Shown here piece by piece: positions 31,783 to 36,417 of a stretch of DNA of 37,856 nucleotides. Position 1 is the first letter of the stretch, and each line of letters begins with the position of its first letter. The notes below the pieces were generated by a model. That model was not told where the DNA came from. It was given only the letters and a program-made list of their open reading frames with translations, and searched no databases. The stretch spans positions 1 to 37,856 of the forward strand of contig SBGO01000708.1 in NCBI GenBank assembly GCA_006226565.1, read 5' to 3'. A program made the translations under genes and the position numbers. The DNA is from Deltaproteobacteria bacterium. Its GTDB lineage: Bacteria > Myxococcota_A > UBA9042 > PHBI01.

Positions 31783-34497
31783 CTACTTGAACTTGATGGC
31801 GTCGATCAGGATGGCCGTGTCGAAGACCGAGTCGCCCTTGTCGGTGGCGAAGAGCCGCAGGGTGACCGGCCCGGTCCCGGCCAGCGCCTGGACGTTCTTC
31901 ACGGTGTGCTGCCAGAGCGTGTTGTAGACGCCCTGCTGGTCGAAGTCGATGTCCGCCGGGTCCACGCCGACGTAGTAGCGACCGCACTCGCAGTTGTAGG
32001 TCCCGGTGCAGGCGCCGCCGCTCGCCGGCTCGTAGCAGCCGGTCTGCCCCATGCACGTCAGATCGCACGGCGCCGGGCTGGCGCACGACGCGCAGCTCCC
32101 GGCGCCGCTGTAGGGACAGAGGTCGTCGACCCGGACGTCCACGACGGTCAGCTGCCCGTCCGCCCCGACCAGCACCGCCTGGAAGGTGTCCTGATACTGC
32201 GAGCCGCAGAACTCGAGGAACTCCTCGCTGAAGAACTTCCAGTAGAACTCGATCTGGACCTTGTCCGCCGGGATGCAGAAGGTCTGCTCCATCGTGCCGG
32301 TCTCGACCGTGAAGCCGAGCCCCGTCGAGATGAGCCCCATGAACTTGCCGCTGACCGGCGAGGAGCTGCCGAGCTGCGTCATCACGCGCCCGTCGCCGAC
32401 GATGGTCCAGCCGGTCGTGTTGCCGGTCTCGAAGTCGCCGTTGATGATCTCGGCGTTCGAGAGGTTGAGGTTGGTCGCGCCGACGAAGCGCCACCACGTC
32501 CCCGGGTTGTCCGGGTCCTCGTCCGCCGTGAAGCGCTCGCCGATCACGCCCTCGGCCCCGAAGTCGTCGAAGAGCTCGAGCACCTTGTCGCGCGCCCAGG
32601 CGCTCTCGACGTAGCCCGAGAAGCCCGTGATGGCCTTCGCCCCCGAGGCGTAGAGCGACGCCGCCAGCGTGCCGTTGTACATGGTGCGGCACGCGCCGAG
32701 GTTGACGAGGCTGCTCGGGTAGCCGCGCCCGCTGTGCGCGGAGAAGAACGACGGCGTGACCGCGTAGCCCTTGTTCGTGATGACGGCCCGGCCGAGCCGG
32801 AGGTCGATCTGCGTCTCATCGACGCACACGCCCTTGCCCGAGGCCCCGTCCCCCGAAGACGTGCCCTCGGTGACGAGGCAGCGGGTCCCCGTCGGGCAGC
32901 CCCCGGTCGGGGAGATGCTCGACACCGTGCAGGCCTGCTGGTTCTGGATGAGCTGCGCGCAGGTCACCGGGCTCCCGGTCCACAGGACCTCCTGCGCGCC
33001 GTGGTGGCGCCAGCGGTACAGGTCGCGCATGTCGGCCTCGGAGATGCCCCCGAAGAGGGCCTCGCCGTGGCTGCTGATCGAGGCCACGCCGTAGCTCCAC
33101 AGGTTGCGGAAGCGGGCGATGGAGGCGTTGGCCCCCTGAAGCACCGTGCCGCTCTCGAGCTCGTAGGTCGGGCACTCGGTGGCGACGATGGCGTTGGCGA
33201 CGTCGACGCCGTCGTCGGTCGCCGCGAACTCCGAAGAGAACGGCGCCAGCACGATGGCGCGCTTGGACCCGACGTCGATGCCGTTGGCCGTGGTGAGCGC
33301 GTTCGCGCCGAAGCCCGCGCCGGGCGGGTTGGATCCCGCCGCGCGCTTGCCCGCGCCGGTCCCCAGCACCGCCCCGAGGACGCCATCGTTGAACTGCACC
33401 CAGATGCTCTCGCCGTCGGCCTCGGCGCGCCCCGCCGCCTTGACGGAAGCGTTGGCGGTGAGCGTGGCGACGACCGCGTCCACGCTGCTCCCGCCGGCGA
33501 GGTCCTGGGAGGCCCCGTCGATCACGGCCTTGTGCGAGTTGCAGTCGCTCGTCAGCACGTGGGTGAGGCAGTCGATCCGGACGGTCGGCGAGATGGCGGT
33601 GTAGCTCGGCGAGCCGCTGATCTGGATGCTGGCGCGGAAGTACATCGGCTCGGCGCTCGCGCAGGTCAGCTTGCCGCGATAGGTGTAGACCGCGTCGGCC
33701 TCGATCTCGTCGCCCGAGCCGTTGAGCTCGCCGTCGTCCTTCATGCTGGCGACGTCCGAGACGAGGTTGCCGTTGGCGTCGACCCGCAGGAGCCGCAGCG
33801 TGTTGATGTCGGCGTTGCTGTAGAGCGAGGTCGGGATGGAGAAGACGACGTCGGTCTGCTGCCCGACCCACAGCACCGCGGGGCGCGCGTCGAGCCCGGC
33901 GTCGAAGCGGTAGGCGGGGTTGTACGTGACCACGATGGTGTCGGTCACGAAGCGCTCGCCGGCGCTCGCGGTGACCGTGATGGTGTTGTCCCCCGGCTTG
34001 AGCTGAATCGGACCCGACTGCCAGAACGAGCCGAGGGCGATGGCCCCGTTCTGGTCGGCGGACTGCCACACGATGGTGTCGGCGTCGCCGAAGAGGATAC
34101 CGGCGAGGCGCACGACGGAGCCGACCGAGGCCGCGGTGCCGTGGCCGCTCGGGTCGATGATGCGGATGACGAGGTCCTCGCCCGGGAAGCCCTTCGGCGG
34201 CTCCGAGGTGTCCGACGCCGTCGTGTCGACCGGCGTCGCGGTGTCCTGCGCGACCGCGGTGTCCTCGGGGGGCGTGGTGTCGGCGACGTCGTCGTCGCCG
34301 GTGTCGCCGAGCGAGTCCTCGTCCACGTCGTCGACCCCATCGGGGGCGCTCGTGTCGTCAACGACCTGCGTGTCCTCGGCGAGCGCGGTGTCCTCGCCGC
34401 CGGTGGTCTCGCCGCCGCACGCCGCCACGGCCATCCACCCCGCGACGAGCAGGGCCGCGAGCGCCGCGCGTGCGGCTCCAGAGCTGGTGTCGATCAC
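31783..34497 (-). CDS. Predicted surface lipoprotein with Asp/Thr-rich stalk, putative clan-CD (caspase/CHAT-like) core and choice-of-anchor-L-like C-terminal domain
   Basis: GTG start at 34497 with AGGAG upstream; signal and lipobox AVAACGG; DT-rich linker; core motifs GVASISSHGEALFGG and LVNLGACRTMYNGTLAASLYASGAKAITGFSGYV; C-terminal NGDFETGNTTGW...FFSEEFLEFCGSQYQDTFQAVLV. Confidence 0.75.
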   Translation of the reverse strand: MIDTSSGAARAALAALLVAGWMAVAACGGETTGGEDTALAEDTQVVDDTSAPDGVDDVDEDSLGDTGDDDVADTTPPEDTAVAQDTATPVDTTASDTSEPPKGFPGEDLVIRIIDPSGHGTAASVGSVVRLAGILFGDADTIVWQSADQNGAIALGSFWQSGPIQLKPGDNTITVTASAGERFVTDTIVVTYNPAYRFDAGLDARPAVLWVGQQTDVVFSIPTSLYSNADINTLRLLRVDANGNLVSDVASMKDDGELNGSGDEIEADAVYTYRGKLTCASAEPMYFRASIQISGSPSYTAISPTVRIDCLTHVLTSDCNSHKAVIDGASQDLAGGSSVDAVVATLTANASVKAAGRAEADGESIWVQFNDGVLGAVLGTGAGKRAAGSNPPGAGFGANALTTANGIDVGSKRAIVLAPFSSEFAATDDGVDVANAIVATECPTYELESGTVLQGANASIARFRNLWSYGVASISSHGEALFGGISEADMRDLYRWRHHGAQEVLWTGSPVTCAQLIQNQQACTVSSISPTGGCPTGTRCLVTEGTSSGDGASGKGVCVDETQIDLRLGRAVITNKGYAVTPSFFSAHSGRGYPSSLVNLGACRTMYNGTLAASLYASGAKAITGFSGYVESAWARDKVLELFDDFGAEGVIGERFTADEDPDNPGTWWRFVGATNLNLSNAEIINGDFETGNTTGWTIVGDGRVMTQLGSSSPVSGKFMGLISTGLGFTVETGTMEQTFCIPADKVQIEFYWKFFSEEFLEFCGSQYQDTFQAVLVGADGQLTVVDVRVDDLCPYSGAGSCASCASPAPCDLTCMGQTGCYEPASGGACTGTYNCECGRYYVGVDPADIDFDQQGVYNTLWQHTVKNVQALAGTGPVTLRLFATDKGDSVFDTAILIDAIKFK

Positions 34498-34597: not shown

Positions 34598-35869
34598 TCA
34601 GCGGCGCTCGAACGTCGCCTCGTCGCCGGTGAGCGACCGCCCGTCGGGGGTCAGCGTCAGCGTCATCCGACGACGCTTCGGCGTCAGGCACTTCGACGGG
34701 CAGGTGCAGGTCATCACGCGCCCCTTCTTGACCGAGAGCGTCAGCCCGGACCCGCTCCGCTCGCCGGCCACCTCGAAGGCGTCGACGTGGGAGAAGCGGT
34801 CGGCGCCGCCGCAGAAGCGGTCGGCCCAGCTGTTCAGCGGAAGCGCCTGGTCGCTGCTGACCGTGAGCGTCCCCTCGACGCGCCGCCCATCCTCGCGAAG
34901 CAGCAGGTGCAGCACGAGGCGCTCGCCGCGCCGCTCGAAGGTCGGCGTCTCCCACTCGCCGGCGAAGCTGTCCCCCGCGGCGCCGAGCGCGCCGCCCGCC
35001 GCACCGACCGGCGGCGCGCCCTCGCGCACGAAGACCCCGGTGTCGTCGCTGAGCTGCATCCCGGACGGCGACAGCATGAGCGACAACCCACGCCGCCGCT
35101 GCTCCACCCGGCACCGCGACGGGCACGTGCACGCGAGGACCCGCGGGATGTCGCGGCGGAGCTCGACCTCGCCGCGCACGACGTCGCCGGCGACGCGCGC
35201 CGTCGTCACCATACGGAAGGTCCCGTTGCCCCCGCAGCTCGTGTCGACCCACGACGCAGGGGCGTCGTACCAGACCTCCTCGTACAGCTCGCCCTGGACG
35301 GTCCGGCCCTCCTGGAAGAGGTCGAGGGTCCGCTTGACGTGCCGATCGAGGACGACACGCGGCGCCTGGAACCACGTGCCGGACACGGCGCCACGCACGT
35401 GGGCCGTATCGAATTGTTCACGGCGCGGCGTATCGCCCGGTGGCGCCACCGAGCCCACCGGATCCGCCGCGGGGGGCGTCACCACCGCGGGATCCGTCAC
35501 GGGGGGCGGCACCGCGACCGGGTCGCCCGAAGGCGCCACCACCGGCGCGTCGGGCGTCGTCGCGGGGGTGGGCATCGGCGCGTCCACGATCGCGGAGCGC
35601 AGGTCGTTGAGCTCCTTGACCAGCGCCGTGATGGTCTCGTCCGTGACGCTGCCGTCGCCGCGCCCGATCCCCTCGAGCGTGCCCTGACACTTCGGGCGCA
35701 TGGCGCGCATGAACATGCCGAAGGCGTCGTCGCGCTCGGGGCTCGCGGCCACCGCGGCGTCGAGCCAGCCGCACGCCGCGCCCAGCTCGGCGACGTCCGT
35801 CGCCATCGCGCGACCGCCGCCGGTGACGAGCAGCAGCGCGAGCGCCGACGCGATCCAACGAGAGCTCAT
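34598..35869 (-). CDS. Secreted protein with two copies of a CTCPxxC-containing domain
   Basis: ATG at 35869: MSSRWIASALALLLVTGGGRAMATDVAELGAACG..., Pro/Thr/Val-rich linker, then two homologous ~120 aa segments carrying CTCPSRC and CTCPSKC. Overlaps the upstream stop by 4 nt. Confidence 0.8.
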   Translation of the reverse strand: MSSRWIASALALLLVTGGGRAMATDVAELGAACGWLDAAVAASPERDDAFGMFMRAMRPKCQGTLEGIGRGDGSVTDETITALVKELNDLRSAIVDAPMPTPATTPDAPVVAPSGDPVAVPPPVTDPAVVTPPAADPVGSVAPPGDTPRREQFDTAHVRGAVSGTWFQAPRVVLDRHVKRTLDLFQEGRTVQGELYEEVWYDAPASWVDTSCGGNGTFRMVTTARVAGDVVRGEVELRRDIPRVLACTCPSRCRVEQRRRGLSLMLSPSGMQLSDDTGVFVREGAPPVGAAGGALGAAGDSFAGEWETPTFERRGERLVLHLLLREDGRRVEGTLTVSSDQALPLNSWADRFCGGADRFSHVDAFEVAGERSGSGLTLSVKKGRVMTCTCPSKCLTPKRRRMTLTLTPDGRSLTGDEATFERR

Positions 35870-36417
35870 TCGGGACCTCCATCGAGGGCGTCCCCCGCGC
35901 CCGGCCGAGCAGCGGGGGGAGGCGTCGCCGCGCCCGGCACGGCGTCGAGGGGCCAGACGGGGATGGGCGGCCCCCACGGCGTCGCGACCCGCATCGCGTC
36001 GTCGATCCGCGAGAGCAGCTCCTGGTGGGCCGATCGCAGGAGGATCGCCGGCGGCTCTGCGGCGCTCGTCCAGAGGTAGAAGCGATCGTCGGGGCCGTAG
36101 CCGAGGATAGGTTCGGCGACCTCGCGCTCCTCGCCCGCGGAGAGCCGCACGACGAGCGCGGTCGCGGTGAAGCGCATGCCGTGGACGAAGCGCGCGACGC
36201 CCTCGCAGGCGACGTAGCACCAGCGCGCGCCGACCGTCAGCACGACGTCGTCGCCGCGCACCGCGATCCCGCGGTGGAACAGGTCCTCGACGCGCGGGTT
36301 CGGGAGCGGCTGCCCGTGAAGCGTGAAGCGCCCCTCCAGGGTGAGGCCGATGCCGCTGTTGCGGCGCAGCGCCTCGAGCACCTCCGGGGGGATCCGAGCT
36401 TCCACCTCGCGATTCAC
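35866..36417 (-). CDS. Hypothetical protein, possibly DUF1285-like
   Basis: GTG 36417: VNREVEARIPPEVLEALRRNSGIGLTLEGRFTLHGQPLPNPRVEDLFHRGIAVRGDDVVLTVGARWCYVACEGVARFV...; family resemblance from memory only. Confidence 0.6.
   Translation of the reverse strand: MNREVEARIPPEVLEALRRNSGIGLTLEGRFTLHGQPLPNPRVEDLFHRGIAVRGDDVVLTVGARWCYVACEGVARFVHGMRFTATALVVRLSAGEEREVAEPILGYGPDDRFYLWTSAAEPPAILLRSAHQELLSRIDDAMRVATPWGPPIPVWPLDAVPGAATPPPAARPGAGDALDGGPE

Follow-up and report, generated by a model that had tools for sequence, protein, structure and literature searches.

The gene at 31783..34497 on the minus strand of the window (the whole 37,856-nucleotide stretch of DNA analysed here) probably encodes a cysteine endopeptidase that is exported, carries a lipid anchor, and adopts a CHAT-like clan CD fold. 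Its fold and its His477/Cys603 dyad are well supported, and peptidase activity, which we infer from them, is likely. The initial annotation had proposed an exported caspase-like peptidase; the fold and the dyad agree with that proposal, CHAT proteins emerge as the nearest relatives, and proteolysis remains the presumed activity.

Domain architecture and export signals

The features of the gene, listed from the N-terminus of its product after the entry for the whole gene, are as follows.

31783..34497, minus strand: whole gene, predicted exported lipoprotein with a CHAT-like core (904 aa; open reading frame and translation)
34417..34497, minus strand: signal peptide and lipobox VAAC with the putatively lipidated Cys27 (sequence)
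34192..34410, minus strand: Asp/Thr-rich linker, residues 30–102 (73 aa; composition)
33565..34191, minus strand: two beta-sandwich (Ig-like) domains, residues 103–311 (all-strand prediction, high confidence)
32452..33564, minus strand: catalytic domain, modelled alone, residues 312–682 (AlphaFold, Foldseek, hhalign)
33067..33069, minus strand: predicted catalytic His477 codon, in SISSHGE (motif [ST/G]-H-G-[DE])
32824..32961, minus strand: Cys-rich insert between His and Cys, residues 513–558 (alignment)
32689..32691, minus strand: predicted catalytic Cys603 codon, in LVNLGACRT (motif LG-x-C-[RK])
31786..32451, minus strand: C-terminal beta-rich domain, residues 683–904, choice-of-anchor L-like (NF038133)

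The open reading frame starts with GTG at 34497 and is preceded by a ribosome-binding-like site, AGGAGA. The lipobox, V-A-A-C, ends in Cys27, a residue kept in 26 of 28 relatives. A crude pattern test, restricted to family sequences with enough N-terminal sequence, finds a lipobox in 51 of 68, while the seven most distant relatives comprise four with a lipobox and others with N-terminal hydrophobic stretches, as judged by eye. Judging from sequence, the signal peptide or lipobox thus persists in distant relatives of the family. The lipobox and the Asp/Thr-rich stalk described in the initial annotation are both borne out, the former by the signal sequence ending at Cys27 and the latter by 18 Asp and 14 Thr among 73 residues, and its view of the protein as exported and membrane-anchored is consistent with the predicted lipobox and signal peptide of the window protein and its relatives.

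The Ig-like region yields Foldseek matches to Ig tandems and bears a weak likeness to Glucodextran_B and choice-of-anchor X, with PF09136 matching 7 of 55 members and NF041940 matching 13 of 55. The catalytic domain consists of a helical lead-in (312–400) and a caspase-like core (about 412–675). At the C-terminus, the model for choice-of-anchor L proteins (NF038133) matches 55/55 members, the window protein scoring 25.2 bits, under the curated cut-off of 27. This likeness lies in the C-terminal domain that all members have in common and is uninformative on the catalytic core.

Predicted structure of the catalytic domain

An AlphaFold model of 802 residues has a mean pLDDT of 90.0 and a pTM of 0.89. 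Its Foldseek search is swamped by the Ig domains, and the catalytic domain (371 residues) was therefore modelled alone, with a mean pLDDT of 92.1 and a pTM of 0.90. The predicted elements are, in order, a strand, a helix, a short strand, a second helix, strand-His, the insert region, strand-Cys, and then a helix, a strand, a helix, and a last strand, an order compatible with the six-stranded, caspase-type sheet of clan CD. In clan CD the two catalytic residues are placed at the C-terminal end of the third and of the fourth core strand (PMC4357240), and in the domain model the His (position 166) lies just past strand 3 (160–163) and the Cys (position 292) just past strand 4 (286–289).

Among solved structures, the catalytic domain matches the CHAT protein DdvA with Foldseek probabilities of 0.99 and 0.91, SAVED-CHAT with 0.97, TPR-CHAT of Craspase with 0.80–0.89 for the best, and the Candida glabrata metacaspase with 0.33. 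The DdvA, Craspase, and SAVED-CHAT chains are recognised as CHAT by an independent same-class CHAT profile, and 8rot/8rw5 are confirmed as CHAT. The E-values of the CHAT matches are just 0.008–0.06 and the TM-scores, by query length, are near 0.3; both count against the endopeptidase reading, as does the failure of the window protein itself to match Pfam CHAT (PF12770), whose gathering score it does not reach. Lumazine synthase matches to the catalytic domain (probability ≤0.3) were set aside. The caspase-type fold anticipated in the initial annotation is thus supported by prediction and fold search alike, through the clan CD element order and the best credible solved matches, which are CHAT proteins and a metacaspase.

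Conserved residues and alternative functions

His477 and Cys603 are invariant in two family alignments, 31/31 in one and 76/76 in the larger, so the two residues proposed earlier, whose codons had been placed correctly to the base, are also conserved across orthologs. An alignment of the catalytic domain (55 sequences) has six invariant columns, G61, G159, H166, C292, G308, and G362, of which H166 (His477) and C292 (Cys603) are the sole non-glycine ones. In the 76-sequence alignment, Asp565 is also invariant, and two further positions are acidic: residue 429, which opens the first core helix, in 76/76, and residue 479 in 72. The residue after His477 is Gly in 67 of the 76, the window protein included, and Ala, Ser, or Ile in the other nine, which are counted against the endopeptidase reading; a Gly beside the catalytic His is structurally conserved in all clan CD families (PMC4357240).

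This pattern of invariance bears on the possibility that the protein has a CHAT fold but serves in binding or adhesion, proteolysis having been lost and the core being kept for its structure, with its Ig-like and choice-of-anchor domains doing the work at the surface. The remaining structured regions are adhesion-like beta domains, and the C-terminal domain is conserved to the same degree as the core and resembles stretches that are also present in other proteins (search of 53 related genomes). However, a structural role alone leaves unexplained why, across phyla, only His and Cys join the glycines as invariant columns of the catalytic domain, and we consider this possibility unlikely. Roughly half as probable is a Cys/His hydrolase or acyl-transfer enzyme built on a CHAT-like fold but lacking endopeptidase function, for example a cell-surface transpeptidase or amidase. 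The dyad predicts nucleophilic Cys chemistry and is silent on the substrate, but the solved Craspase and metacaspase structures among the Foldseek matches are those of proteases, which favors an endopeptidase.

Relationship to the CHAT, C14, and C25 families

The peptidase core is missed when Pfam, NCBIfam, and PDB sequences are searched with a single sequence, a profile search of the PDB with the core returns nothing credible, and no Pfam, NCBIfam, or PADLOC model assigns the window protein as a peptidase. Within the family, Pfam CHAT matches 13 of 55 members, and one distant relative (L106) passes the gathering score with 25.2 versus 24 bits.

For profile–profile comparison by hhalign, domain alignments of CHAT, Peptidase_C14, and Peptidase_C25 were made from genomes of the class or phylum of the window. 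Against a 17-sequence CHAT alignment the family scores 85.5% (E 5.8e-6), its His and its Cys each aligned with the CHAT counterpart. A 25-sequence CHAT alignment gives 19.5% with the Cys-rich insert and 78–84% without it, and the seven insert-free relatives reach 91.6%, about on par with the known pairs CHAT–C14 (91.2%) and CHAT–C25 (93.7%); the C14–C25 pair scores 45.5%. Profile homology of the family to Peptidase_C14 (0.5–1.9%) or Peptidase_C25 (0.1–0.15%, control level) was not found by hhalign, four unrelated control families scoring 0.06–0.28%. With CHAT at 85.5% (91.6% for the insert-free relatives) and C14, C25, and controls at ≤2%, the family is nearest to CHAT rather than to caspases proper or gingipains. 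The broad clan CD placement made earlier (caspase, CHAT, or gingipain type) therefore stands for CHAT (85.5%), aligned at both catalytic residues, and is disfavored for C14 and C25 (<2%).

The likeness to CHAT proteins (PF12770, including Csx29/TPR-CHAT of Craspase, SAVED-CHAT, and DdvA) extends over the predicted fold, the His and Cys positions, the [ST]HG and LxxC motifs, and, past the Cys, a helix followed by an AGA strand. Unlike these systems, the window protein is a predicted exported lipoprotein whose core lies between Ig-like and choice-of-anchor domains and carries a Cys-rich insert, and it lacks both Pfam CHAT and PADLOC matches. Peptidase_C14 (caspase, metacaspase, orthocaspase) shares the His and then Cys after successive core strands and supplies the metacaspase among the fold matches, and Peptidase_C25, the classic bacterial example of exported clan CD peptidases, shares the clan CD order and exported location; nevertheless, although both families are present in these genomes, membership in either is highly improbable, since hhalign places them at 0.1–1.9%, control level or slightly higher, versus 78–92% for CHAT when the insert is absent or removed.

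The Cys-rich insert

Four cysteines of the insert, Cys523, Cys534, Cys540, and Cys558, are present in 69–70 of 76 sequences and Cys513 in 64, and in some members the insert has a weak likeness to Dickkopf, lustrin, or Myxo_Cys_RPT. It is absent from the seven distant relatives, which still hold the dyad. The His–Cys spacing is 126 in the window protein, 112–135 in close relatives, and 68–91 in the insert-free seven, compared with 42 in caspase-7 (His144/Cys186) and 46 in PmC11 (His133/Cys179) (PMC4357240). The spacing is thus as unusual as the initial annotation had held, and its length is counted against the endopeptidase reading. As far as the alignments indicate, the insert is a conserved, class-specific module that leaves the predicted fold intact, and it probably forms a disulfide-held cap or a substrate-guiding module.

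Family distribution and genomic context

At the protein level, 49 of 53 related genomes contain a match, a few of these matches being weak (e.g., in G002). Profile searching across the phylum (284 genomes) places the family in 48 of 52 genomes from the class of the window versus 2 of 232 others, and in both of the latter the match is confined to the N-terminal part of the profile. The genome of the window encodes one full-length paralog (51%) with the same His and Cys. It also has five recognised CHAT matches, all of them other genes, and six Peptidase_C14 matches, and is therefore rich in caspase-fold genes.

A scan of GTDB genomes yields 79 loci, mostly in metagenome-assembled genomes (MAGs) titled Myxococcales, Myxococcota, Proteobacteria, or Deltaproteobacteria. 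Distant relatives (26–29% identity) come from Brocadia, Schekmanbacteria, Zixiibacteriota, Alteromonadaceae, Planctomycetota, Hydrogenedentes, and one proteobacterial MAG; relatives with predicted export signals are found in other phyla. Genes of the family also occur in MAG records under the title Klebsiella pneumoniae (L071, L087) or Anaeromyxobacter dehalogenans (L061); the former title, at any rate, seems to be a mislabel.

The neighbors of the gene in the window, RecA, ComM, NIF3, PcnB, and the upstream ORF, each recur in at most three of the fetched loci, so gene context does not indicate a function. That upstream ORF (34598-36220, minus strand) has two similar Cys-containing halves and a homolog in a locus of the same family (L035), with no match in Pfam or NCBIfam. 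In six other loci (L046, L060, L062, L064, L089, and L103) a same-strand gene ends just upstream, the longest copy of its cluster reading as a serine/threonine kinase. An antiphage role was considered and has no PADLOC support.

Downstream, a second lipoprotein-like gene lies on the same strand in 17 of the 72 loci with downstream sequence (including L034:2772-5075, L045, L047, L050, and L054), with a gap of <600 bp in 15 and an overlapping ORF start in two; a TIG domain is present in all three of the products tested. Downstream of the window gene itself lies a NIF3 gene in convergent orientation; within the genome of the window, the nearest copy of the downstream partner is on another contig. 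The downstream lipoprotein is a candidate substrate only in those relatives that have it.

Proposed mechanism and implications

In the proposed mechanism, Cys603 would attack the peptide bond with His477 acting as the base, and the neighboring backbone would make the oxyanion site. More tentatively, the acidic residues 429 and 479 might favor a basic residue at P1. The probable substrate is another protein of the envelope or a secreted one.

CHAT proteases such as Csx29 of Craspase and SAVED-CHAT, whose roles are known, are intracellular defence components, and literature searches at the title and abstract level found no published description of an exported CHAT lipoprotein. It is possible, though doubtful in its entirety, that the family is an unnamed, near-universal branch of exported CHAT-like proteases in this class, tethered to the surface for extracytoplasmic processing, with a disulfide-rich cap over the active site and, in part of the class, the downstream lipoprotein as the protein it processes. 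The core of the family has no model of its own in Pfam, NCBIfam, or PADLOC, so one new model could define the family. An exported family that is CHAT-like, class-wide, and intact in its dyad would bring the CHAT fold to the cell envelope and would provide an envelope protease amenable to testing in a group that is known here mainly from metagenome-assembled genomes.
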